Shown here: in pieces, positions 2,126-22,338 of the stretch
Layout: each line of letters opens with the position of its first letter
How positions within the stretch are numbered: position 1 is the first letter of the stretch
Made by a program: the position numbers and the translations under genes
NCBI GenBank assembly: GCA_002069965.1
Contig: MWCI01000037.1
Coordinates: 1-32,976 of the forward strand
Reading direction: 5' to 3'
Length of the DNA: 32,976 nucleotides
Source of the DNA: Spirochaetes bacterium ADurb.Bin218
GTDB lineage: Bacteria > Spirochaetota > UBA4802 > UBA5550
Notes under the pieces: model-generated
The model's input: the letters and a program-made list of their open reading frames with translations, nothing else
Database searches by the model: none
What the model was told of the DNA's origin: nothing

Positions 2126-2527
2126 ATGAAACAAGAGGCCTGTGTGGAACAAAAAGAGAGAATTTTGCTTATACGTAAAGGCAACGAGCTTTATAATTCT
2201 GGCAGATACGATGAGGCAATAAAATTGTATCTGAAGGCTAACTATCATGATGGGATCATGCGAGTGGCGGATTATTATTACTATGATCTAAAACAGCCTC
2301 TGGTGGCTTTAAAATTCTACAGGCTGATAAATAGAAAGGATAGGATAGAGGAAATAAATCAAAGAATAGTTTTTGCTTTTAACAAAATGCTCTCCGGGAA
2401 CACTAAGAAAGAAGAAGATTCAGAGAAAGATTTGCAACAGGAGATTGAGGTTAAGATTCATCCAAAACTCAAAATATTGGCAGAGGAGATTATAAGGGAT
2501 AATGAATCAAATGAAGAAAAGAAGTAG
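2126..2527 (+). CDS. Small TPR-like protein upstream of M16 peptidases
   Basis: A 133-residue soluble protein with no signal sequence. Residues 15-40 (RLIRKGNELYNSGRYDEAI-like) form one recognisable tetratricopeptide-type helical hairpin, and the following Tyr-rich stretch (YYYYDLKQPLVALKFY) looks like a second, degenerate one. The C-terminal third is charged and probably flexible. TPR hairpins usually bind peptides or partner proteins. The stop codon lies 26 bases inside the next gene, so translation is likely coupled to the M16 peptidase, although that protein is exported and this one is not. I do not recognise a named family. The start has AAAGAG about seven bases upstream. Confidence 0.65.
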   Translation: MKQEACVEQKERILLIRKGNELYNSGRYDEAIKLYLKANYHDGIMRVADYYYYDLKQPLVALKFYRLINRKDRIEEINQRIVFAFNKMLSGNTKKEEDSEKDLQQEIEVKIHPKLKILAEEIIRDNESNEEKK

Positions 2528-4034
2528 AAAAGCGCTGATTATATTTCTTTTGTTTTTGGTTGCTTTAAATTTTAAAAATGTTCTCTATGCTTTGGAAAGC
2601 TCATCCTTTGATACAGAAAGGTATTTTAGCAATAAGGTTATTGAGAAAAAACTCAAAAATGGTATTACCCTTTTGATGATGAACAGGGGCTATTCTCCAG
2701 TTATTTCTCTTCACATTGCCTTTAAAGTTGGTTCAGTTGATGAAAGTTATAACACTGAAGGTGTAGCTCACATACTGGAGCACATGCTGTTTAAGGGAAC
2801 AGATAAAATAGGCACAAAGGATTATTCACAAGAAAAAGCTCTTCTTGATAAGATTGAGGCTATTGGAGATACTATTGATAAACTGAAATTAAAAAATCCT
2901 ACAAATTCAAAGATTAAGGAACTTGAAGAGGAGCTAAAGATACTTGAAGAAAAGCATGCAATGCTTGTGGAGAGCTCTCCTTATGATAAATTATACAGTG
3001 CAATGGGAGGTGTGGGTTTTAATGCCTCAACCTCCTCTGATATGACTGGCTACTATATTAGCCTCCCAGCAGATAAGATTGAAGAGTGGGCAAATATTGA
3101 ATCTCAGAGGCTAAAAAATCCAGTTTTCAGGGAGTATTATAAAGAGAGAAATAATGTTCTTGAAGAGAGGTTGATGAGATATGGGAGAGGCAGCAGTGGG
3201 ATTTTGTGGGAGACCTTTATGGCACTGGCCTATAGCGCTCATCCCTATAGGCATCCTGTTATAGGATGGGAATCTTCTATTAGATATATGTCTCTTTCTG
3301 ATCTCCGTAACTTTTACTATAGTCATTATGTGCCCTCAAGGATGACTATTACAATAGTTGGACGATTTGATAGTGAAAAGACCTTTGAGGTAATAAAAAA
3401 ATATTTTGAAGATATTCCACCTCGGCCAGAACCAGATGAGGTTAAGATTGTCGAGCCTGAGCAATTAGGACAAAAACGAGGGGAGGTCTTTTTTGATGCA
3501 AAACCAATGATATTTATTGGATGGAAAAAGCCATCAGCCCCAAAGAAAGAGGACTATGCCTTTGATATAATATCCACAATACTTTCTGAAGGGAAGTCAT
3601 CCAGGCTTTACAGGTCTCTGGTTTTAGAAAAAAAGCTTGTTACATCTATTGATGTTTGGAATGGAGCTCCTGGTATTAGATATGATAATATTTTTATGAT
3701 AATGGCAACACCAGCGCAGGGGGTTGATTCTGAAATAGTTGAAAAGGCTATAATGGAAGAGATTGAAAATTTCAAAAAGACAGTTTCAGCGGAAGAGATT
3801 GAAAGAGCCAGGAATCAACTGGAATCTTCTTTGATCTTTATGCTCGATAGCAATGATGGAGTGGCTCATCAACTGAGCTATTATCAGACTATACTTGGTG
3901 ATTGGAGATATTTGCCTTTATATCTAAAGAGGATTAGCTCAGTTGATAAAGAAGAAATTAAATCTGTGATGGAAAAGTTTATAATTGATAAAAACAAAGT
4001 TGTTGTTTATTTAAGAGATTCAAGAGGGAAGTAA
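2502..4034 (+). CDS. Exported M16-family zinc peptidase (catalytic partner)
   Basis: A 510-residue protein with an N-terminal signal or anchor (residues 10-30, hydrophobic). It carries the inverted zinc motif HILEH (His90, Glu93, His94); the third ligand is most likely in the Glu-Glu pair at 221-222 (VLEERLMR). It therefore looks like an active M16 peptidase of the processing-peptidase type, acting outside the cytoplasmic membrane. An insert of about 50 residues (113-155), highly charged and predicted coiled-coil, separates the HxxEH motif from the third ligand; this belongs to a longer M16 subfamily. It lacks the RxxRGLxY substrate-binding signature, which is found in the next gene, so the two products probably form a heterodimer. 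The start overlaps the previous gene; an in-frame ATG at 2511 is an alternative. Confidence 0.9.
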   Translation: MNQMKKRSRKALIIFLLFLVALNFKNVLYALESSSFDTERYFSNKVIEKKLKNGITLLMMNRGYSPVISLHIAFKVGSVDESYNTEGVAHILEHMLFKGTDKIGTKDYSQEKALLDKIEAIGDTIDKLKLKNPTNSKIKELEEELKILEEKHAMLVESSPYDKLYSAMGGVGFNASTSSDMTGYYISLPADKIEEWANIESQRLKNPVFREYYKERNNVLEERLMRYGRGSSGILWETFMALAYSAHPYRHPVIGWESSIRYMSLSDLRNFYYSHYVPSRMTITIVGRFDSEKTFEVIKKYFEDIPPRPEPDEVKIVEPEQLGQKRGEVFFDAKPMIFIGWKKPSAPKKEDYAFDIISTILSEGKSSRLYRSLVLEKKLVTSIDVWNGAPGIRYDNIFMIMATPAQGVDSEIVEKAIMEEIENFKKTVSAEEIERARNQLESSLIFMLDSNDGVAHQLSYYQTILGDWRYLPLYLKRISSVDKEEIKSVMEKFIIDKNKVVVYLRDSRGK

Positions 4035-5416
4035 TGAAAAATTTTTTGATAAAAGTATCTGTCTTTGTATTAGTCTTTTCAACTGCCATTGTCTATGGCG
4101 CTGCAAAATATTCTCTAAGGGATCTCCCGGTGGTTAAAAGATCCACTCTTACAAATGGAGTAAGAATTCTCTCCGTTGAGGATGATTTGCCGCGGAGTGA
4201 AATTACCTGCTCCATTGGATTTGGAAAAATTTATGAAGATAGCAATAACGCTGGCATATCAGAGGTACTTGCCAGGGCTATAACAATAGCTGGAACAAAA
4301 AATTATCCAGGCAATGAACTCAATTCAGTCTTAGAAAATCTTGGTGGAGCAATATCTGTCACAGCAGGTTGGGAAAATATAACAATTACAGTAAGAGTTT
4401 TAAGCAAGCATTCAGACCTTGCCTTTCATATTATTGCAGATATTTTAAAAAACCTTAAGCTTGATGATGAATCTGTGCAATACAGCAAAGATCTTGTCTT
4501 TCAGAAATTCATGAGAGAAATGGATGATCCTGCAAATCTTGGATTTACAAAAGCAAGAGAAATAATCTTTGATGGTAAAGGATATGGTGCTTTAATAACT
4601 AAAAGCTCCATTGATTCAATGAATTCTGAAGTTTTAAAAAAGCTATGGGATGATATAACAACTTCAGAGAATATTATTCTGGCTATATCTTCACCTATTG
4701 AGGAATCTCATCTAAAGGAAATGATTAATAAAAATTTTGGAGATATAAAAGCAGGCAGCGGAAAGCAATATTATGTAGATAATGAAAAGCTCAAAAAAAA
4801 TTTAGCCGCCAGGAGTGGTAAAATATATTTTATTCCAAAGGAATCACAGCAGGCAACTATTGTTCTTGGGACAATAGCACCAGATGTAAATTATAAAGGC
4901 AACTATTCCCTGGCACTTTTAAACTATATACTTGGAGGAGGCTCCTTCAGCTCACGCCTTATGACAGAGATCAGGGTAAAGCGAGGTCTTGCCTATTCAG
5001 TTTTTTCTATTATTAGAAATAGATCTAAAACAGGAGTATTTTTATCTTTTGTGCAGACTCGCAATGATGAGGCAGCAATATCTCTTCAACTTATGCGGGA
5101 AAATATCTTAAAATTAAAAGATGAGCCTGTAAGTGATGAGGAGCTTTTGTGGGCTAAGGAATCAATAACAAATAGCTATATTTTTAATTTTGCCACAGTT
5201 TCTGATGTGCTGTCAAATTATATTGAACTGGAAATAAATAACTGGCCCGGTGATTATTTTTATAAATATCTTGATAAGATAGATGAGGTGAATAAAAAAG
5301 ATATTCTACAGGAGGCCAAATTGCTTTTTGGCAGTGGACTTATAATTGTTGTTGTTGGAGATAGGACTCTTGAGCAAAGACTCAGAAAGGAAGGGGAGGT
5401 TGTTGTTTTAAATTAA
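4034..5416 (+). CDS. Exported M16-family protein, non-catalytic partner
   Basis: A 460-residue M16 homologue with a clear signal peptide (residues 1-22). The position of HxxEH is occupied by Glu-Val-Leu-Ala-Arg (77-81), so zinc cannot bind in the usual way. It retains the C-domain signature RVKRGLAYS (314-322) and the GGGSFSSRLMTEIR motif that help bind substrate in trans. In two-gene M16B systems one subunit supplies zinc and the other the Arg/Tyr pair, which fits this pair. The ATG shares one base with the stop of the upstream peptidase (TAATG), indicating translational coupling. A terminator follows about 75 bases after the stop. Confidence 0.88.
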   Translation: MKNFLIKVSVFVLVFSTAIVYGAAKYSLRDLPVVKRSTLTNGVRILSVEDDLPRSEITCSIGFGKIYEDSNNAGISEVLARAITIAGTKNYPGNELNSVLENLGGAISVTAGWENITITVRVLSKHSDLAFHIIADILKNLKLDDESVQYSKDLVFQKFMREMDDPANLGFTKAREIIFDGKGYGALITKSSIDSMNSEVLKKLWDDITTSENIILAISSPIEESHLKEMINKNFGDIKAGSGKQYYVDNEKLKKNLAARSGKIYFIPKESQQATIVLGTIAPDVNYKGNYSLALLNYILGGGSFSSRLMTEIRVKRGLAYSVFSIIRNRSKTGVFLSFVQTRNDEAAISLQLMRENILKLKDEPVSDEELLWAKESITNSYIFNFATVSDVLSNYIELEINNWPGDYFYKYLDKIDEVNKKDILQEAKLLFGSGLIIVVVGDRTLEQRLRKEGEVVVLN

Positions 5417-6465: not shown

Positions 6466-7818
6466 ATGATTTTTACCTATATTCTTATATTCTTATTTGT
6501 GATAATTCTTACAATAATCATTTTATATTTTCTTAGTGTTTATGTATTCCCTCGTAAAATAGAAGAGATCCAGAAAATGATTGAGGCGGGTCAGATTAAG
6601 CTGGCCATACGCAAACTCAACGAAATTCTTGAAAAAGATGAAAGAAATCCCTATGCTCATTTTTTACTGGCAGAGGCCTATGCTGCTGATGGTAATACTC
6701 AATATGCCATAGTGGAATATAGGCAGGTTCTCAAGATGGGGCGCTTTGATGATAAAATAAAAGAGGTTTATGTTCGTCAGGTGCTTGCGAAACTTTACAA
6801 AGAAAAGAAGGCTTTTGAGGATGCAAAGAAAGAGTTCTTAATTCTCACTAAAATAGATCCAGCAAATTATGAAAACTTTTTTGAACTTGGAATGATATAT
6901 TATAACATGAATCAGATGGATAAGGCTCTTAATTATCTCAAAAAGAGCGCTTCTTTAAATTCAAAGCACGATCGTTCTTTTTTCTATCTTGGTCAGATTT
7001 ATTACAAAAATGCTGTATATGCAGATGCTAAGCAGTGCTTTCTTAATACTATAAAGATTGATCCCTCTAATTATCAGGCTCATTATTTTCTCGGGCTTGT
7101 ACTCAGGCAGCAGGGGGATTATGAGTGGGCATTGAAGGAGTTTGAGGTTTCCATGAAAAGCGATGACCTTAAGGTTAAAAGCATCCTTGCCAGAGGAACA
7201 TGCTTCATGGAAAGATCTCAGTATCCAAAGGCTATTATGGAATTTGAAAGGGGCATTAAGTTTGCACCAAAGGGCAGCGATCTGGAGCTTAATCTTAGAT
7301 ATTTTCTGGCAGAGTGTCAGGAGAAGATGCGCGATGTCCACGCTGCAATTATCAATTGGGAGAGAATTGCAGAGGTAAATCCAAAGTTTAAAGACGTTCA
7401 GCAGAAACTTGCCACTTATGCTGAATTCAGACAGGATGACAGGATTAAGGATTTTATGATTGCAGGTCTTGCTCAGTTTGAGCACATGTGCAGAAAGATA
7501 GTTGCAACAATGAATTATAATATTACAGATATTGAAATAATAAGTGACACAGAGATAGAGATAATTGCTACAGAAAATGAAGGTAAGTGGAGAAACACTC
7601 GCCAATCCAATAGAATTATACGCATCCTTAGAACTACAGAAGTGTTGCCTGAGTCTTATTTTCGTAAGCTCCATGAAAGCATGCGTCCAAGAAATGCTAC
7701 TCGATTGCTTGTTATAACAACCGGTGAGATTTCTCAGAAGGCTCTTGAGTTTGCAAATACAAGGCCAATAGAAATTAAAGGGAAGGCAGAGCTTGTTGAA
7801 CTCTTGCGAAAGATATGA
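6466..7818 (+). CDS. Membrane-anchored TPR protein with degenerate Mrr/REase-like C-terminal domain
   Basis: A 450-residue protein. Residues 3-27 form one transmembrane helix. Residues 36-330 are a run of TPR hairpins (for example DPSNYQAHYFLGLVLRQQGD and the DPANYENFFELGMIYYNMNQ hairpin). Residues 335-450 (QFEHMCRKIVATMNY to the end) have the order of helices and strands of an Mrr-type restriction endonuclease-like domain, ending in LLVITTGEISQKALEFA. The nuclease motif D-(E/Q)xK is not preserved: the strand that should carry it reads IIRILR. The domain is thus probably a binding module. The product most likely faces the cytoplasm. The ribosome site AGGGAG is good. It opens a seven-gene cluster and is the architectural twin of the gene at 12822. 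The domain call rests on pattern recognition and is moderately sure. Confidence 0.72.
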   Translation: MIFTYILIFLFVIILTIIILYFLSVYVFPRKIEEIQKMIEAGQIKLAIRKLNEILEKDERNPYAHFLLAEAYAADGNTQYAIVEYRQVLKMGRFDDKIKEVYVRQVLAKLYKEKKAFEDAKKEFLILTKIDPANYENFFELGMIYYNMNQMDKALNYLKKSASLNSKHDRSFFYLGQIYYKNAVYADAKQCFLNTIKIDPSNYQAHYFLGLVLRQQGDYEWALKEFEVSMKSDDLKVKSILARGTCFMERSQYPKAIMEFERGIKFAPKGSDLELNLRYFLAECQEKMRDVHAAIINWERIAEVNPKFKDVQQKLATYAEFRQDDRIKDFMIAGLAQFEHMCRKIVATMNYNITDIEIISDTEIEIIATENEGKWRNTRQSNRIIRILRTTEVLPESYFRKLHESMRPRNATRLLVITTGEISQKALEFANTRPIEIKGKAELVELLRKI

Positions 7819-7827
7819 AATTGTTTT

Positions 7828-9639
7828 ATGAATAAATTGATAAAAACACTTCAGGGCATTCCATTTTTTGCTCACCTGTCTTTATCTGAATTGATGGAAC
7901 TTGTTGGTATATCTGGCCTATCTATCTTTAAGAAAGGCCAGTCAGTTTTGTTAAAGAAAAGCTCTTCTCTTTATGTAGTTATAAGTGGCATTTTCGAGGT
8001 GGAGAGCTTTGCAGAGCGAGATGTTTTATATTTGCCATCTGGTGCATTTTTTGGCTCCATCCCCTTTGCGGATATTAAAATAAAAGGTGAAATATCTGCC
8101 ATGACTGATGCAGAGGTTCTTATTTTGCCTGAAGATGCTCTTTTTAGATTTTTATTTTCAAATCATAGACTTTTGAGGGGATATTTAAGGATCCTGTCAG
8201 ATCTTGGATATGAGATAAATGAATCTGCACGTTCTTTTGTTTCTAATAAAACTAAAGTTATAACTATTTATGGACGCTATAGAGGGGTTGGGAAGACTTT
8301 CCTTTCTACTTTGCTTGGCCTTGCTATTTCAGATAAAAAAAAGGATAGCAAAACAATAATGCTTGATCTCTCCTATGTTGGGAAGAGCTTTTTTGATTAT
8401 CTAAATTGTGAACTTAAAATTCCTATCTCTGTGAAAAGTGAGGAATCAGATAAAAGCGATATAGCCAAAAGCAGAATAGTCCCTTACAGTGATAATCTTC
8501 ATCTCCTCAATGTGAGCAACACCTCAAAGATAAAAACAGAGGCACGTATTTTAAAACCGCTACTTATATCTCTTGTTCGTGATTATAATTATATAATTAT
8601 TGATCTTTCAGATGATGATCCAGAACTTAGAGATATGGCATTGTCTTTATCGGATATAATTTTTGTCATTACCTCAGGGAAGAGAGCAGATAGCCTTTAC
8701 AGAATGATTGATAATGTCATAAAAGATTGTCAGAGGGTAGTTTATGTCAGAAATTCTTTTATCCATGGTAGTGACTACTCTGTCTCTGGTGGGCTAATAT
8801 TGCAGGAATGCAACTGTGATATCTCAGATTATATAACAGCTATGGAGAATTTTATTTTCTCGGGCAAATTTGATAGCTTTTTAAATATGATTACAGGAGA
8901 GAGAAGAGCAATCGCAATTGAGCCTCTGCGTCTTGAGTCAATACTATTGAGCTCTTTTATTTGTGAGTTGAGCAAGCTTGATTTAAAAAACACCTATATT
9001 TATTCCTCTTCATGGACTTTTATACTTATAGCACTTTCTCTTCTAATTGATAATTATGAAGACCTGAAAAAAGCAATGATGAAATTTTATTCCCCTGAGC
9101 AGGTAAACAAAAATCTTTCAGTTGTTTTTCCAAAGGATTATGTTTTTTCAAGTGATAAAATTATAAAATATGCAATGGATCTTGCTTCTTCTGCAAGAAT
9201 GGAGTTTTTTTCTCCCGCTGCTTTAGGTTCCATTTGCGTCGATGGTGCTCCTGAGATTAAAAGCACTGGCTATCTTTGGCAGATGATTGCTGCAAGCTTT
9301 ATCTCGTCTCCTGAGTTTCAACCTCTTACAGTTGATGACAGGAACTTAACCTCTGGCTATCCATACTCCTCACTGTCTTATTTTAGCCTTTATAGAACAG
9401 ATATTAATGAGATATATAAAATTTCTGTTAAGAATAAAGCCACTTTGACTATTCCGCAGGATTTTTTTAACAATTTCTATTCCTCTGTTTTAAATATGGA
9501 AAATATTATTGCCAAAGAGGATATATATTTGAGAAATACTCATAATTTAATACTTGATGTTTCGGAAAGTGAATATAAATTTGACAGGATTTTTGAATCA
9601 ACTTTAAAATCTGCTCGTACTATTATATCTAAACTATGA
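7828..9639 (+). CDS. CNB + P-loop + degenerate patatin-like protein (NTE-type layout)
   Basis: A 603-residue protein. Residues 5-125 are a cyclic-nucleotide-binding fold, but the phosphate cassette (FFGSIPF, 75-80) lacks the usual Glu and Arg, so nucleotide binding is doubtful. Residues 143-310 are a MinD/ParA-like domain with GRYRGVGKT (149-157) as Walker A, lacking the signature first Lys, and YIIIDL (255-260) as Walker B. From about 350 the order follows bacterial NTE-type patatin phospholipases: FLNMITGERRAIAI for the RL.R.LTGR lead-in, SSSW (393-396) at the GTSxG nucleophile elbow, and LWQMIAASF then TVDDRNLTSG (501-510) at the second catalytic region. The oxyanion glycines, the elbow glycines and the catalytic Asp are all replaced, so it looks like a pseudo-enzyme. 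No clear ribosome site precedes the ATG; coupling to the upstream gene, 9 bases away, is likely. Confidence 0.7.
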   Translation: MNKLIKTLQGIPFFAHLSLSELMELVGISGLSIFKKGQSVLLKKSSSLYVVISGIFEVESFAERDVLYLPSGAFFGSIPFADIKIKGEISAMTDAEVLILPEDALFRFLFSNHRLLRGYLRILSDLGYEINESARSFVSNKTKVITIYGRYRGVGKTFLSTLLGLAISDKKKDSKTIMLDLSYVGKSFFDYLNCELKIPISVKSEESDKSDIAKSRIVPYSDNLHLLNVSNTSKIKTEARILKPLLISLVRDYNYIIIDLSDDDPELRDMALSLSDIIFVITSGKRADSLYRMIDNVIKDCQRVVYVRNSFIHGSDYSVSGGLILQECNCDISDYITAMENFIFSGKFDSFLNMITGERRAIAIEPLRLESILLSSFICELSKLDLKNTYIYSSSWTFILIALSLLIDNYEDLKKAMMKFYSPEQVNKNLSVVFPKDYVFSSDKIIKYAMDLASSARMEFFSPAALGSICVDGAPEIKSTGYLWQMIAASFISSPEFQPLTVDDRNLTSGYPYSSLSYFSLYRTDINEIYKISVKNKATLTIPQDFFNNFYSSVLNMENIIAKEDIYLRNTHNLILDVSESEYKFDRIFESTLKSARTIISKL

Positions 9640-9658: not shown

Positions 9659-10159
9659 TTGAGATCTAAAAAAACCAATGCTTTGCAGATGGCAGTTTTA
9701 ATCTCTGGCTTTTTGTTCATTATCATAGGCATTGCTTTTTTATTTTTCCCTCTATCAGTTTTACAGTTTTTTGCAGAAAATGTTTCAGAAAACTGGCTGG
9801 ATCTTGTAAGGGATAATGAGCTTGTGGCTCCTTTATTTTTTATGGTTAAAGCTTATTCAGTTTTGCTTATTACCTCAGGATTTTTGATGGTAATGCCTCT
9901 TTTTGATCCACTAAAATATAGGGGGATTGTTTATTTTAATGGGCTCTTTTTCCCTGCCATTTCTTCTTTTATACTCATAAAAAATTCTTTTATAAAGAGC
10001 AGTAATCTACCGCTGGGTGATACTTTGCCGCAAAATGGCAGCGAATATTTTACTCACAAGGTTATGCTTACATGTGGCGCAGTTTTTGCATTTATTGCTT
10101 TGATATGTGCTGCTACTTTAATCCTCACTTCAAAAGAAGCAAGAGAAGGAAAAGAATAA
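9659..10159 (+). CDS. Four-helix membrane protein of unknown function
   Basis: A 166-residue protein with four hydrophobic segments (about 10-35, 57-80, 88-105 and 128-150), a Lys-rich N-terminus and a charged C-terminal tail (KEAREGKE). No catalytic motif is visible and I do not recognise a family. The start is a TTG preceded by the strong site AAGGGGG; no better start exists. It lies 19 bases after the patatin-like gene and 91 bases before the STAS gene, within the unusual cluster, and could be its integral membrane component. Confidence 0.7.
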   Translation: MRSKKTNALQMAVLISGFLFIIIGIAFLFFPLSVLQFFAENVSENWLDLVRDNELVAPLFFMVKAYSVLLITSGFLMVMPLFDPLKYRGIVYFNGLFFPAISSFILIKNSFIKSSNLPLGDTLPQNGSEYFTHKVMLTCGAVFAFIALICAATLILTSKEAREGKE

Positions 10160-10250: not shown

Positions 10251-10595
10251 ATGGATCTCAATTTAAAGAAAAGCGGGAATGCAGTGATTATTTATCTTGC
10301 AGGAAGGCTTGATGTTCATCTTTCGGCTGACATTGAAAAAGAAATAAATAAACTAATAAATACAGAGCCGGATAGTCATTTTGTTCTTAATCTCAAAGAT
10401 GTTGAATATATGAGTAGCTCTGGCCTGAGAATTTTTGTTTCAACCATGAGAATACTTAAAGAGAAGAAAAGAAAGCTTGTTCTTTGCAATATGAACAGCG
10501 CTGTTAAGAAGATTTTTGAGGTTGTTGAATTAACAGACATGTTTGATATATTCAACAGTGAGGCTGAGGCTCTTGAATTTTTAAAGAATTTTTAA
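10251..10595 (+). CDS. STAS-domain protein (anti-sigma factor antagonist type)
   Basis: A 114-residue single STAS domain. It shows the expected order: an N-terminal strand (AVIIYLAGRLDV), a helix, the strand FVLNLKDVEYM, then the loop SSSGLRIF. Ser56 aligns with the phosphorylated Ser of SpoIIAA/RsbV proteins, but the Asp that normally precedes it (DSSG) is Ser here. Such proteins switch partner when a serine kinase phosphorylates them and a SpoIIE-type phosphatase reverses this. No kinase gene is seen in the window; a CNB-SpoIIE phosphatase is at 21112. The upstream 91 bases contain a TATAAT (10208-10213) without a good -35. Confidence 0.85.
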   Translation: MDLNLKKSGNAVIIYLAGRLDVHLSADIEKEINKLINTEPDSHFVLNLKDVEYMSSSGLRIFVSTMRILKEKKRKLVLCNMNSAVKKIFEVVELTDMFDIFNSEAEALEFLKNF

Positions 10596-10598
10596 AAT

Positions 10599-12797
10599 GT
10601 GGAAATCTTGAAATTCTTTTCGCCTAAAAAAGAAAGTCAGAGGTGGCCAGAGAGCTTTTTACCTGAAGGGCTGAGGTCTTTGCTTTCTCAGAAAAAATCA
10701 GCAAAGGTTTTAGATGAAATCAATTTAGGATTAAGCAATCGAATACTTTTTGAAAGGTTTTCTTTCTTTAACTGGCCTCTCTGGCTGGAGATTTTCTCAA
10801 AGCGTAAATTATACTCCTACTGCATAAATTCTAATTCTCTACTACTCAATAGTTCCTGCAGGGAATGGCAATGCTTTAACAATTATTTTGATGGATCAGA
10901 TAACAGGGAGCTTGCAATAGATCGCAGTGGTATGCTTTCCTCCTGTGATGAACATGCCTGGTCTATGGAGTTCTGGATCTTTGCAGATGGTAAAACATAC
11001 AGACCTCAACATAACCTTTCAGAAATATCTATTTCCAGAGATCCCCGTAAAGGTTTCATTGAGCTTATATGGAAAAATACGAGGTTTACTCTAAGGGAGA
11101 AAATTTTTGGACTTCATGAAGGTAGAAACCAGGCACTTGTTTCTGTAAATATTGATTCTCACTTAAAGGATGATATTTATCTCATATCAACCATAAGACC
11201 TTATAATAACGAAAAAATTGGCGGAATCAATTCCATTAGATTTGATAGTGATTCCTTGACAGCTTTTATAAATGAAAAGCCAATAATTGCCTGTGAAGAT
11301 AGACCAGATTTTATTATATCTTCTTGTGCTATATCTGGGGTGGATCTTCAATGCAGTGATGAAACCTTTTCTCTGGAGGCAGATTGCTCCTATGGGCTTG
11401 CCACTATAGGATTTAAGTATCTCATTCCAAAATCTAAAGGTTCTTATAATTTTAGAATTTCTCTTATAAAAAATTTTAATCTTGCAGGAGATTCAACTAA
11501 GATCAACTTCGCTCATGCCTTTAAGGATTTTACCCTGCTTTCTGATTTTAAGGTCCGTCATGGAATAAATCTCAATCATAGCGATCTTAACTTTGAGAAT
11601 CTTTTTTTGCAGGGGAAACAGTCTTTTTTATGTATGCATAGAGGTGATTTTGATGTCAGTCAGTTACTTCCCTTCAGGGATCTTTATATAATATCCCATG
11701 GGCTTTGCAGAAGTGGTAATTGTGAGAAAGCTGAAGAGTTTTTTAAGTATTTTTTAAAATCCTTTTCTCCTGAGAAGAAAAAAGTTGACTTTGAAATTTC
11801 TCTTAAATGTTCTTTTGTAATTTTAACTTTTTATGAACTATTTATTCATAAAAGGGACTCTGGTTTTTTGAATGAGTACTATAGCCTTTTAAAGGAATTT
11901 GTCACTTACGTGTATAATATATCAGTTGATATTCACAATCCTCTTGTGGTGGAGGATTTTCTTGATGAGGGCTTTGTCAAAAGGCCTTCAATTTCTTTTA
12001 CTCTTATCACAGCCTCTTCCTTAAGCTCTTTTGCCTATCTTTCCAGGTGTATGGGAATTTTTGGGGATGAGGCAAAATTTAAGAATGAGTTTATGCGCCT
12101 TGCTTCTCTTGTTAATAATGTTTTGATGTCCCATGAATTTCTTGCGGAAGATATATTAAAGGATTTACTCTCTTTGCCTCGGAAATTCTCTGACTCTGTT
12201 AAGGATATTGACTATAATAGATACCTTGAAGTCTTGCTTGAGTCTGACTTTCCTTTGCAAAACAGACTGTATGGTATAGATATGTTTAAAAGTATTGTTC
12301 TGTTAAATCAGCTTCTTATGGGTGGCAAAAATATAGATTCTTTATTTTATAAATTATCTTCTCTCTTGGATGATTTTTTTGTGTTGCCAGAGTTTATTGA
12401 TCCATTGACAAAGCGTGGAAGCTATGGCAGAGGTAACTCTAAAGTTACAAATGCTATGTTTTTTTCATTGTTGAGAAATATGCTTTTTGTTGATCATGAA
12501 GACAGGCTTGTAATTTTTCCTGTTACCCTGAAGGAGTGGTTTAAGACAAAGTCAAAAATTTCACTGGAAAATGCCCCATCCCGTTTTGGCCTTATTTCTT
12601 TTTCTATGGAGATTAATGGATCAGATATTCGCATGAGTTTTAGTGGTGAGCCTAAGTATCTTCCGCCAGACATTGTAATTAATCTGCCATTTAATGCAAC
12701 AGTTGTTTCTGGAGATGATTTTATTTTTAAAAAACAACTTGGCAATAGCTTTTATATAAGCGGGTGGCCATCCATTATCAGGTTTATGATAAAATAA
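10599..12797 (+). CDS. Large glycosidase-like (six-hairpin type) protein, function unknown
   Basis: A 732-residue cytoplasmic protein with no signal peptide. The first 300 residues are beta-rich (SMEFWIFADGKTYRP and FTLREKIFGLHEGRNQALVSVNI), like the N-terminal sandwich of glycogen-debranching and GH15-type enzymes. The middle is helical, including LPFRDLYIISHGL (about 357-369). The C-terminal 95 residues (LVIFPVTLKEWF, NAPSRFGLISFSME, PPDIVINLP) match the closing beta domain of six-hairpin glycosidases. Acidic catalytic residues could not be assigned with confidence, and the family resemblance is overall rather than motif-based. The start is a GTG three bases after the STAS stop, with only a weak ribosome site, so coupled translation is likely. 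Whether it is an active glycan enzyme or a relic fold cannot be decided from sequence. Confidence 0.6.
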   Translation: MEILKFFSPKKESQRWPESFLPEGLRSLLSQKKSAKVLDEINLGLSNRILFERFSFFNWPLWLEIFSKRKLYSYCINSNSLLLNSSCREWQCFNNYFDGSDNRELAIDRSGMLSSCDEHAWSMEFWIFADGKTYRPQHNLSEISISRDPRKGFIELIWKNTRFTLREKIFGLHEGRNQALVSVNIDSHLKDDIYLISTIRPYNNEKIGGINSIRFDSDSLTAFINEKPIIACEDRPDFIISSCAISGVDLQCSDETFSLEADCSYGLATIGFKYLIPKSKGSYNFRISLIKNFNLAGDSTKINFAHAFKDFTLLSDFKVRHGINLNHSDLNFENLFLQGKQSFLCMHRGDFDVSQLLPFRDLYIISHGLCRSGNCEKAEEFFKYFLKSFSPEKKKVDFEISLKCSFVILTFYELFIHKRDSGFLNEYYSLLKEFVTYVYNISVDIHNPLVVEDFLDEGFVKRPSISFTLITASSLSSFAYLSRCMGIFGDEAKFKNEFMRLASLVNNVLMSHEFLAEDILKDLLSLPRKFSDSVKDIDYNRYLEVLLESDFPLQNRLYGIDMFKSIVLLNQLLMGGKNIDSLFYKLSSLLDDFFVLPEFIDPLTKRGSYGRGNSKVTNAMFFSLLRNMLFVDHEDRLVIFPVTLKEWFKTKSKISLENAPSRFGLISFSMEINGSDIRMSFSGEPKYLPPDIVINLPFNATVVSGDDFIFKKQLGNSFYISGWPSIIRFMIK

Positions 12798-12821: not shown

Positions 12822-14378
12822 ATGCTTTTCAATATTTTAATTGTAGCTGCATTTCTTCTTGGCATAGTAGCTTATTATCTTTATTTCATTGCGCCTAAGT
12901 TAAATCCATTTAACAGGGCTGAGTCTTTTTTAAATGAAGATAAAATAGAAGAGGCTATAACAGAGTACATAAAAATTCTTGATAAAGCTCCTTACGATAT
13001 TTCTGTTCATAAAAAATTGGCTGATCTGTACTTAAAGCAAGGCAAAGAGGATCTGGCCATGAAGCATTTAGAAAGGCTTGTGGATATTAACAGATTTACA
13101 CCAGACATAGTCAAAAGCGATATATATAGAACTCTTGGAAGAATGTATTTAAAAAAGGGTCTGGTGGAAAGGGCCTTTGAGAAGTATTATGAAATTTTAA
13201 AGGAGTTTCCAGCAGATTCAGAGTCTCTGTATCATGTTGGCTTTATTTCTCTTGGACAGGAGCTTTTTGAGACTGCCTACAAATATCTGGAAAAACTTGC
13301 AAAGCAGGAGCCAGCAAATTTTGAAATTCTTTTTGGTGCGGGAATTGCAGCTTTGCAGAGCCAGAGAATTTCTGAGGCTGCTAATTTTTTCAAAGATGCT
13401 TTTGGAGTTAGAGCTGATTCTGATATAGCTGCATTGGCTGCTGCTTTTGCATTTTACAGAAAACGCGATTACAACACGGCTCTGCACTATACCGCTCATT
13501 TAATAGAAAACAGCAGTGATGATGCTGCAAGGTTCATTGCCAACAGACTTGCTGGCTTTATATATGCAGAATCAAATAAGCCAAATTTAGCACTCAAGCA
13601 TTTTGAAGATGTGAAAAATTTTTGTATTGAACATGGATGGGATGTGGAACTTATTACAGCATTATATGATGCTGGATTCGCAGCTTTGATACATGGTAAA
13701 ACAGAACTTGCTTATGATTATTGGAATCAGCTCTATCAGATGGACAGAAATTTTAAAGACACTCAGGAACTTATAACACGTCTCAGAAAGGAGATGGATT
13801 CCTATGGGTCAAAGTATGAAGAGGTAAAACCTGTCATAAATGAAAAACAGAATTGGATTGCTTCCGCTTTTCCTGATGATTTTATATGGAATCTCTGTGG
13901 TCTCAAAAGCGATACCTCCTATAATATTGCTGGAATTATCTCCTCAGGAAAATCTTCAGTAAGAAGAGACAAAAGAGAAACTGATTCATTAAGAGAACAA
14001 GAGGATGTTGATTTTGAATTTTTATATAAGGTAGATTCAGAGACATTCAGAAGCATGTCTTATCGGGCATGTGAAAAAATGGGATTTATAATTGATGATA
14101 TTTTACAGACATACAGAGAGTCAGATGGAGTTGATTTTCTGGCAACCAATAAAGAAACAAAACAGAAAACGCTTATATGGGTTCGAAGATGGAAAGGGAC
14201 TAATGTGGGAGAAATCCCATTGAGAAATTTTGCTCAGGCTATAAATGATGCAAAGGCAAAACAGGGTTATTTTTTTACTACTTCTCCTTTGACTCCAGCA
14301 GCGGAGGGTATTTTGAAGAATCTTGAAAAGGTTCGTGTTGTTTATCCAGATGAGTTTTTGAGATTGCTGCAGAATTAA
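12822..14378 (+). CDS. Membrane-anchored TPR protein with Mrr-like C-terminal domain (second copy)
   Basis: A 518-residue protein laid out like the product at 6466: one transmembrane helix (residues 3-24), TPR hairpins from about 30 to 325, a flexible charged linker (330-395), then an Mrr-type endonuclease-like domain (400-518). The nuclease fold is easier to see here: SDGVDFLATN provides the Asp (438), and the next strand, TLIWVRRWKG (450-459), holds the place of the QxK motif but reads Trp-Val-Arg, so the catalytic Lys is lost. FRNF-type and GYFFTTSPLTPAAEGI segments follow as in Mrr. A DNA- or protein-binding role is more likely than cleavage. It sits 24 bases after the glycosidase-like gene and 18 before the ParB-like gene. 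Confidence 0.75.
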   Translation: MLFNILIVAAFLLGIVAYYLYFIAPKLNPFNRAESFLNEDKIEEAITEYIKILDKAPYDISVHKKLADLYLKQGKEDLAMKHLERLVDINRFTPDIVKSDIYRTLGRMYLKKGLVERAFEKYYEILKEFPADSESLYHVGFISLGQELFETAYKYLEKLAKQEPANFEILFGAGIAALQSQRISEAANFFKDAFGVRADSDIAALAAAFAFYRKRDYNTALHYTAHLIENSSDDAARFIANRLAGFIYAESNKPNLALKHFEDVKNFCIEHGWDVELITALYDAGFAALIHGKTELAYDYWNQLYQMDRNFKDTQELITRLRKEMDSYGSKYEEVKPVINEKQNWIASAFPDDFIWNLCGLKSDTSYNIAGIISSGKSSVRRDKRETDSLREQEDVDFEFLYKVDSETFRSMSYRACEKMGFIIDDILQTYRESDGVDFLATNKETKQKTLIWVRRWKGTNVGEIPLRNFAQAINDAKAKQGYFFTTSPLTPAAEGILKNLEKVRVVYPDEFLRLLQN

Positions 14379-14396: not shown

Positions 14397-15317
14397 ATGG
14401 ACAGAGATGATTTGAGGTCAAAAATATATCTTAAGGATATAATAGAAAATTTTGATTTTAAGATAAGCAAGCCCCTTATCGGGCAGGAACTTGCCACTTC
14501 CTTAAGAAATAATGGTCTACTGGAGTTCCCATACTTGCTAAGGAAACAAGAGGGATACATTGCTTTTACATGCCACAATAGAATTATGGCGCTTAAGGAA
14601 ATAGGCTTTGATAGCATTGATGCTTATTTATTATCTGAGCCATCCTTTGATATTTTTAACAGAAATCTTGTGTTAAAGATATTTCGAAGTGAAGTTGGAC
14701 CAATAGGTAAGGTTAAGGTGATTTCTATTCTGCGCAAAATTTTTAATTTTTCAGATGACAAAGTGCTCTCTTACAATAAGAGTGTTCTTAAAATGCCCCA
14801 TGAATTAGTTCTTGATTTTAATTTTCAGGAAAGGCTTTTATCCCTTCCCTCAGAATTGATAGCCTATCTTGATCTTAAAGATGTCCCTTTTAAGACTATA
14901 AGGGATTTGATCCTTTTGAATGACAATATATTATTTCACATTGATAGATGGCTGAGCACAATCCCCGTTAGATTAAATATATTTAAAAGCATTGTAGAAT
15001 ATCTTTTTGATATACAGCGTGGAGGTTCTATTTCTGAAGAGATCTTTTATTCTCAATGCTTTACTGATGACAGAAGTCTTTTTAGTTTTATTTTTTCTTT
15101 AAGATATCCGGATTATTCAAGAAGACGAAACAGAGCTGAGGCAATTGTAAAAGAAATATCAGGGGATGGACTCTCAATTGAGGTTCCTGAGTTTTTTGAG
15201 AGAGATTTTATCACAGTAAAGTTTTTACTTAAAAAATCTGATTCTCCAGAGAAGCTTAAAAATATTCTGGAAAAAATAAAGACAGATGATATCTCTGAGA
15301 TTTTTTCTTGCTTTTGA
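14397..15317 (+). CDS. ParB-like domain protein
   Basis: A 306-residue protein. Residues 15-80 resemble the ParB/Srx N-terminal fold: ISKPLIGQELATSLRNNGLLEFPYLLRK, then YIAFTCHNRIMALKEIGFDSIDAYLL, where CHNR (59-62) sits in the position of the ParB box GxRR that binds CTP. The exact arginine pair is not conserved. The remaining 220 residues are mostly helical, with a possible HTH around 105-160, and carry no motif I recognise. It is not the chromosomal ParB type, since box conservation is low and no Soj-type ParA is adjacent; the nearest P-loop protein is the gene at 7828. It ends the cluster and faces a minus-strand gene across a 2-base gap. The start has no strong ribosome site. Confidence 0.6.
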   Translation: MDRDDLRSKIYLKDIIENFDFKISKPLIGQELATSLRNNGLLEFPYLLRKQEGYIAFTCHNRIMALKEIGFDSIDAYLLSEPSFDIFNRNLVLKIFRSEVGPIGKVKVISILRKIFNFSDDKVLSYNKSVLKMPHELVLDFNFQERLLSLPSELIAYLDLKDVPFKTIRDLILLNDNILFHIDRWLSTIPVRLNIFKSIVEYLFDIQRGGSISEEIFYSQCFTDDRSLFSFIFSLRYPDYSRRRNRAEAIVKEISGDGLSIEVPEFFERDFITVKFLLKKSDSPEKLKNILEKIKTDDISEIFSCF

Positions 15318-21050: not shown

Positions 21051-21111
21051 TTCTTGAAAAAGAAAGCATAAGCTTGCAAAATGCTCTATATTTATACAAT
21101 GGAGTATTTTG

Positions 21112-22338
21112 ATGAGTAAAGAGGATTATGTCGAAATTATAAATGCCCTTCGGACCATACCAAGCCTTAAAAATTTAACCCTTGAAGAATTAAAAGTTAT
21201 AGCTCCTTTTTTTGTAGAAAAGAAATTTCATACAGGTGATTTCATCATTGTTGAAGGCACAAGTGGCAATGCTATGTATATCATAAAAAATGGGACTGTG
21301 ATAGTTACAAAGTCTGATAAAAAAGGGGAGCAAATTACCTTAGGAGTGTTGCGTGATGGCGATTTTTTTGGAGAATTTTCACTTTTTGATAATCTTCCTC
21401 GTTCAGCTAATGTAGCAGCAATAGATGACACAACAATCTTTGTACTCACTCGTGAAGACTTTGATAATATATGTAAAGACAATATAACAATAGCCAATAA
21501 AATATACTTTAATACCCTTCTTGAGGTATTTTCTCGCTTCAGAAAGAATATTTCAAATTTTACTTTTTCACAGTATCATCTTAGAGAAAAAAGTGAAATG
21601 CTAAATAAAATAAACAGAGATCTCTCAAGTGCTCAGGAAATCCAGCAATACTTTATAAATGTAGGAAAAATTTCCAGAGAATTGATGGGGATCAAGCACT
21701 CTTATGTATATCAGCCCTCTGAGGCTGTAGGTGGTGATTTCATTGACATAATAGAAAAGGGATCTAAAATTTACATGATAATAGCAGACGTTGAGGGACA
21801 TGGGATCACAGCAGCTCTTGTAACAGGGGTGTTAAAAAGCGCCTTTGTTATGCTTGTTCCTCTCTATGGAGATGATCCATGCCTTTTTTTAAGCAGGCTC
21901 AACAATCATCTATATAATGTTATACATTCCATTCATGCTACCTGTTACTATACAGTGATAGACACAGATAAAAAAGAAATAACCTTTGCCAAGGCAGGTC
22001 ATCATCACCCTCTTTTTTGGAATAGCAATAAAAACGCTTTTGAGGATATTAACTCTAAAGGTCCAGGTCTTGGCATAGTTTTAGATCCTGTATATTCAAT
22101 TTGCACATTGCCATATAGTTCAGGGGACAAATTGCTCTTTTTTACAGATGGAATAATTGAGCAAAGGAACAGAGATGGCCAGATGTATTCCCTTGAAAGA
22201 TTACAGAAGGTTTTTTTAACTTCTTTGCAAAACAAAGAGTCAAATACTTTGAATGTTATTTTAAAGGATCTTTATAAATTTTCTAATCATTCAGATTACG
22301 AAGATGATATTACCTTGATGTTGTATGAATTTTTGTAA
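21112..22338 (+). CDS. CNB-domain SpoIIE/PP2C-type serine phosphatase
   Basis: A 408-residue protein. Residues 15-135 are a cyclic-nucleotide-binding domain with an intact phosphate cassette (FGEFSLFDNLPRSA, Glu88 and Arg97), so it probably binds cAMP or a relative. A helical linker (150-190) leads to a SpoIIE/PP2C domain with the metal motifs VGGDF (Asp209), ADVEGHG (Asp226), FTDG and EDDITLM. Such enzymes dephosphorylate STAS-domain antagonists; the STAS protein at 10251 is a candidate but the link is inferred. GGAG lies seven bases before the ATG at 21112; an in-frame TTG directly before it is too close to that site. Confidence 0.92.
   Translation: MSKEDYVEIINALRTIPSLKNLTLEELKVIAPFFVEKKFHTGDFIIVEGTSGNAMYIIKNGTVIVTKSDKKGEQITLGVLRDGDFFGEFSLFDNLPRSANVAAIDDTTIFVLTREDFDNICKDNITIANKIYFNTLLEVFSRFRKNISNFTFSQYHLREKSEMLNKINRDLSSAQEIQQYFINVGKISRELMGIKHSYVYQPSEAVGGDFIDIIEKGSKIYMIIADVEGHGITAALVTGVLKSAFVMLVPLYGDDPCLFLSRLNNHLYNVIHSIHATCYYTVIDTDKKEITFAKAGHHHPLFWNSNKNAFEDINSKGPGLGIVLDPVYSICTLPYSSGDKLLFFTDGIIEQRNRDGQMYSLERLQKVFLTSLQNKESNTLNVILKDLYKFSNHSDYEDDITLMLYEFL

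Follow-up and report, generated by a model that had tools for sequence, protein, structure and literature searches.

We examined a window of 32,976 nt (contig MWCI01000037.1) from a spirochaete with a 3.03-Mb genome; its named relatives, e.g., UBA5763, HGW-Spirochaetae-5, and RBG_13_51_14, are Spirochaetes/Spirochaetia assembled from metagenomes. Coordinates written with two dots (start..end) refer to the + strand. The gene of interest (7828..9639) encodes a 603-aa protein, here termed pseudo-NTE, in which a CNB-like domain, a MinD/ParA-like P-loop domain and a patatin-homologous domain follow one another, as judged from the ORF, its orthologues and a full-length family profile. The coordinates, length, and domain order given for this gene in a previous sequence-only reading of the DNA agree with our ORF, Pfam, profile-alignment, and structure-match results. 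The gene is preceded by one for a TPR protein (6466..7818) with a single predicted N-terminal membrane helix (by eye) and a C-terminal Mrr_cat-like domain, and is followed by genes for a hydrophobic 166-aa protein (9659..10159), which comes next in nearly all loci of the class, and for a syntenic protein with a STAS domain according to Pfam (10251..10595). Across the class, the order gre, TPR/nuclease-like gene, pseudo-NTE, 166-aa membrane protein, STAS protein, 732-aa protein, TPR/nuclease-like gene, and ParB_N-like gene is conserved, with some losses.

The TPR gene stands immediately upstream of pseudo-NTE in class loci with enough flanking sequence, with one exception. In this genome (G010), pseudo-NTE (L023) directly follows gre with no TPR gene between them, and only distant TPR proteins occur elsewhere. 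The genome is small and 72% complete; thus, either the TPR partner can be dispensed with or its gene has been lost in a small, incomplete genome. The TPR gene itself is found in 148 of the 198 genomes of the phylum. Pseudo-NTE was not found behind it in genomes where other genes occupy that place (metallophosphoesterase-like in Treponema-size genomes and GAF-SpoIIE-like in family f34). The C-terminal domain of the TPR protein matches Mrr_cat in Pfam, and its QxK motif is absent, by eye, from every sequence of an alignment that covered, of the two TPR proteins in the window, the one at 6466-7818. Both of these proteins (6466-7818 and 12822-14378) end in Mrr_cat-like domains with QxK apparently lost, and Pfam also names "NACHT-associated inactive restriction endonuclease" for such ends. 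The homologue in genome G096 may be T. pallidum TP0471. Nothing on the function of TP0471, and nothing on the spirochaete TPR/nuclease-like gene, was found in the literature searched; likewise, the spirochaete flagellar-collar TPR proteins were set aside as an explanation for this neighbor, as that literature established no link between them and these genes. Further along the window, the 732-aa protein (10599-12797) is conserved in the class at 28-40% identity with many invariant Trp, Gly, and Asp residues; it has no Pfam match beyond chance, and one of its relatives matches glycoside hydrolase family 95 at E=0.04. A 306-aa protein (14397-15317) has relatives of which two of eight match the ParB N-terminal domain (best E=8e-5), with the window copy itself unmatched. 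Upstream, the second of two adjoining M16 peptidase-like genes (4034-5416) lacks, by eye, the HxxEH motif that is present in the first (2502-4034).

When the pseudo-NTE protein was scanned alone, Pfam returned cNMP_binding (E=9e-6) and AAA_31 (E=2e-4), each slightly under its curated cut-off, and no match to Patatin. The CNB-like domain (residues 1-130; 7828..8217) is also recovered by Foldseek (1u12, E=5e-7), and 38 of the 41 full-length orthologues match cNMP_binding. Its phosphate-binding cassette (residues 72-91; 8041..8100) is degenerate. The position of the cassette Glu, after FG, is occupied by S77 and retains Glu in 7/41 orthologues, and by column counts the Arg is absent from the cassette, although Gly87 is kept in 39/41. 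The window protein therefore has neither the Glu nor the Arg taken to mark a ligand-competent cNMP-binding domain. For comparison, the intact CNB of the window gene at 21109-22338 reads FFGEFSLFDNLPRSANVAA.

The middle of the protein forms a MinD/ParA-like P-loop domain (residues 141-330; 8248..8817), as indicated by AAA_31 and by the match of the predicted model to MinD 3r9j (VIA Z 19.8, 210 residues aligned, rmsd 3.3). Walker A reads RYRGVGKT (residues 150-157; 8275..8298), with Y151 in place of the signature Lys, which is present in 4 of 41 orthologues and absent in 37. The nucleotide pocket is better preserved: Gly155 and S/T157 are found in 41/41 orthologues, as are the A' Asp (Asp180; 8365..8367) and the Walker B Asp (Asp259; 8602..8604), while Asn309 is found in 39/41 and Lys156 in 34/41. 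With GKT and both Asp residues (A' and Walker B) in place, nucleotide binding by the window protein is plausible despite the missing signature Lys, whose absence makes a dimer-hydrolysis cycle of the MinD/ParA type unlikely. Moreover, nucleotide binding cannot be essential throughout the family, as the Walker Lys is absent in 7/41 orthologues.

Judged by four profile tests, the C-terminal part (residues 357-545; 8896..9462) is homologous to patatin. Scanned singly, 19 of the 41 full-length orthologues match Pfam Patatin (PF01734) at E<=0.1, with a best E of 1.5e-8, and at least three (L012, L014, and L030) score above the curated cut-off. Searched against the same genome, the family HMM finds an intact single-domain patatin through HMM positions 349-602 (E=7e-14). 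A C-terminal profile has one significant relative in the PDB, the patatin PlpD (5fqu, E=3.5e-7), which it matches in two co-linear stretches, one covering the oxyanion and nucleophile part and the other the Asp part. Finally, 13 intact NTE-type (CNB-x-patatin) proteins from the phylum (L090-L098, L103, and L105-L107) align with the full-length profile of the family across 502 columns (E=1e-27), which places S395 and S509 on their catalytic Ser and Asp. The last two E-values put the patatin/NTE relationship far beyond chance. Structure prediction was less informative for this region. In the AlphaFold model of the full protein (pTM 0.78), the MinD-like core is clear and residues 421-500, within the patatin part, are weak; modeled alone, the C-terminal domain reached a pLDDT of 47, too poor for a structure search. 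The matches listed for the full model are CNB and MinD entries, with no patatin among them, which we do not take to mean that the fold is absent.

Each element of the patatin catalytic center can be located in these alignments, and each is altered. The former oxyanion loop (residues 364-371, IEPLRLES; 8917..8940) is free of glycine, with EPLRLE (365-370) opposite GGGGAR of the intact relatives; the glycine-rich GGG motif is found in 0/41 orthologues vs. 13/13 intact relatives. The former nucleophile elbow (residues 392-397, YSSSWT; 9001..9018) carries SSSWT (393-397) opposite GTSMG, so that both glycines are gone and the nucleophile Ser (S395) is retained in the window protein. GxSxG is found at the aligned position in none of the 41 orthologues, and the nucleophile column itself (Ser 22, Gly 13, Ala 4, Cys 1, Phe 1) has undergone at least five changes on the tree. 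In the former catalytic-Asp segment (residues 508-512, TSGYP; 9349..9363), Asp is replaced by Ser509; this column holds Ser in 36, Ala in 4, Asn in 1, and Asp in none of the 41 orthologues, and the adjacent Gly510 is kept in 32. The window protein is thus very probably devoid of patatin-type hydrolysis, as far as its sequence can tell. A DGA string at residues 471-473 was considered as a displaced catalytic Asp and rejected, since it is unconserved and aligns before the STG motif and not with DG[GA]. One orthologue (L045) contains a GMSFG string at residues about 395-399, shifted by two residues from the aligned nucleophile, and has no Asp segment; as far as can be told, the string is due to chance.

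Orthologues of pseudo-NTE were found in 44 of the 46 genomes of the spirochaete class. The class scan matched 45/46; however, the match in G038 is another CNB protein and was excluded, and both genomes without an orthologue are at most 69% complete. The reading frame is intact in all 41 full-length orthologues. Pairwise dN/dS was computed within close species groups and is rough where dS exceeds about 1. In the two groups with the best sampling, the CNB domain gave 0.04-0.16 and the P-loop domain 0.07-0.13; the patatin domain gave 0.08-0.27, and 0.08-0.12 in a group of five species whose nucleophile residue is Gly. These values argue for a selected pseudo-enzyme and not for decay: the patatin domain is, by this measure, under selection though predicted to be incapable of patatin chemistry.

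The claims of the sequence-only reading are borne out in part by these data. It had lined up an NTE-type architecture with a patatin domain at its end, and the full-length profile alignment indeed places CNB, middle region, and patatin in a single chain; an unrelated C-terminal fold, which would have spoken against it, is not indicated by the profiles, which point to patatin and to no other fold. The replacement of the elbow glycines, the oxyanion glycines and the catalytic Asp, and the absence of Glu and Arg from the CNB cassette, were all described correctly, with the addition that Ser395 itself persists. It had also named conservation of the altered positions among orthologues as the means of separating a pseudo-enzyme from decay, and here the outcome favors the former: the oxyanion glycines and Asp are absent throughout, none of the 41 orthologues combines GxSxG and DG[AG] at the aligned places, and selection on the dead domain is evident. 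Its statement that every catalytic center looks lost holds for the patatin domain and the cNMP cassette, and has to be withdrawn for the P-loop, where the signature Lys is missing as claimed and the nucleotide pocket with GK[ST], A' Asp, and Walker B Asp is conserved.

More distant members of the family occur outside the class. Ten genomes from four other families of the phylum encode a shorter, more divergent outer orthologue directly behind the TPR gene, and a profile of this group matches the pseudo-NTE family over its full length (E=2e-26). None of the ten has a Walker GK[ST] match or patatin motifs at the aligned places. Since the catalytic Asp is lost in these outer members as well, its loss appears to predate the split of several families. 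In two genomes (G140 and G148), the degenerate outer protein (L054 and L053, respectively) shares the genome with a CNB-x-patatin enzyme whose motifs are intact (L098 and L107), indicating that the two are paralogues.

Several explanations for such a protein can be weighed. The lost catalytic motifs and the shorter, more divergent outer group are what one would expect of a former phospholipase that is turning into a pseudogene; however, presence and gene order are maintained class-wide, and the intact frames together with the dN/dS values across every domain rule this explanation out. Alternatively, the patatin domain could have kept or gained another chemistry, in which Ser395 and the conserved Ser509 act with a non-canonical partner. 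Ser395 and the conserved S509-G510 pair may leave room for altered chemistry, given the frequency of Ser in both columns and of Gly510. Against this stand the oxyanion glycines, missing in every orthologue, and the 19 of 41 orthologues that have Gly, Ala, Cys, or Phe at the nucleophile position through several independent changes, with dN/dS still about 0.1; we consider a surviving or novel activity improbable. A further possibility is that the P-loop is the working center, i.e., an ATPase switch of the MinD/ParA type that is controlled by the CNB-like domain and uses the dead patatin domain as its output or docking surface. The strong fold match and the invariant pocket residues would suit such a switch, but the signature Lys is missing in most orthologues. 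Furthermore, ATP hydrolysis cannot be the shared function when the Walker Lys is replaced in seven class members and the ten outer orthologues are without GK[ST]. A switch of this kind is therefore conceivable but unlikely.

The explanation that we favor, with a probability of roughly 0.6 for the whole, is that pseudo-NTE is a pseudo-enzyme under selection that serves as a nucleotide-binding adaptor with its TPR neighbor. In this scenario, the family would have descended from NTE-type CNB-x-patatin phospholipases and lost lipid hydrolysis when the oxyanion loop and Asp disappeared in all members and the nucleophile in half; the inactivity of the patatin domain is well supported. The dead domain would then have been retained by purifying selection as a binding surface or structural module. 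Its P-loop neighbor most likely still holds nucleotide in the majority of orthologues, the window protein included, and, being without the signature Lys, may act as a structural element or a slow switch. In this mechanism, pseudo-NTE would probably be a soluble protein that docks on the membrane-anchored TPR/inactive-nuclease product of the preceding gene and acts there as an adaptor. It is gene order that points to this partner, and docking as such is put forward tentatively, at somewhat less than even odds. A scaffold or sensing role, as proposed by the sequence-only reading, is a reasonable inference for the protein. It is also conceivable, if rather speculative, that pseudo-NTE belongs to an ancient spirochaete module put together from repurposed enzyme folds, which would build a phylum-specific intracellular complex, with the membrane TPR/inactive-nuclease protein and pseudo-NTE as its first two members and the small membrane protein, STAS protein, 732-aa protein, second TPR/inactive-nuclease protein, and ParB_N-like protein as frequent followers. 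If pseudo-NTE is indeed a partner, then a widespread spirochaete TPR/nuclease-like gene gains a candidate for its interactions.

Catalytic residues that are gone from a fold under selection are also seen in known pseudo-enzymes with scaffold or allosteric roles; a review of these (PMC10211241) gives a snake-venom PLA2 inhibitor as its example of a pseudophospholipase. No inactive patatin, NTE-type, or pseudophospholipase family of this kind, and no family combining patatin, MinD, and CNB, turned up in the open-licence papers searched, which, being limited to such papers, is weak evidence of novelty. PlpD (5fqu), the one solved structure significantly related to the C-terminal domain, resembles it in the two co-linear stretches; unlike pseudo-NTE, it retains the oxyanion glycines, GTSMG, and DGG, and its matched chain is without CNB or P-loop. 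With MinD/ParA proteins (3r9j, 8ray, and 3ea0), pseudo-NTE shares the fold of residues 141-359, GK[ST], the A' Asp, and the Walker B Asp, but it differs from them by the missing signature Lys and by the location of its P-loop domain between CNB-like and patatin-like domains. The closest likeness is to the NTE-type CNB-patatin phospholipases of the same phylum (e.g., L090, L094, and L103), with which it shares the domain order and alignable positions of the oxyanion loop, elbow, and Asp segment. All 13 of these relatives possess GGGG, GxSxG, and DG[GAS], and Walker A is absent from their middle region, which nonetheless aligns with the P-loop domain of the family (E=6e-6 for all 13 and 1e-6 for five of family f34). 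The middle domain of NTE-type proteins in the phylum thus seems to be a degraded MinD/ParA-like one (E about 1e-6), and this could help explain how these enzymes are regulated. Pseudo-NTE would be a clear example of how a bacterial phospholipase of the NTE type became a conserved non-enzyme; the loss appears to predate the divergence of several families, and selection was measured on the inactive domain itself. In contrast to the intact enzymes, with live patatin motifs and no GK[ST], it combines a dead patatin domain with the nucleotide residues of the P-loop, and the two branches seem to have lost opposite centers.
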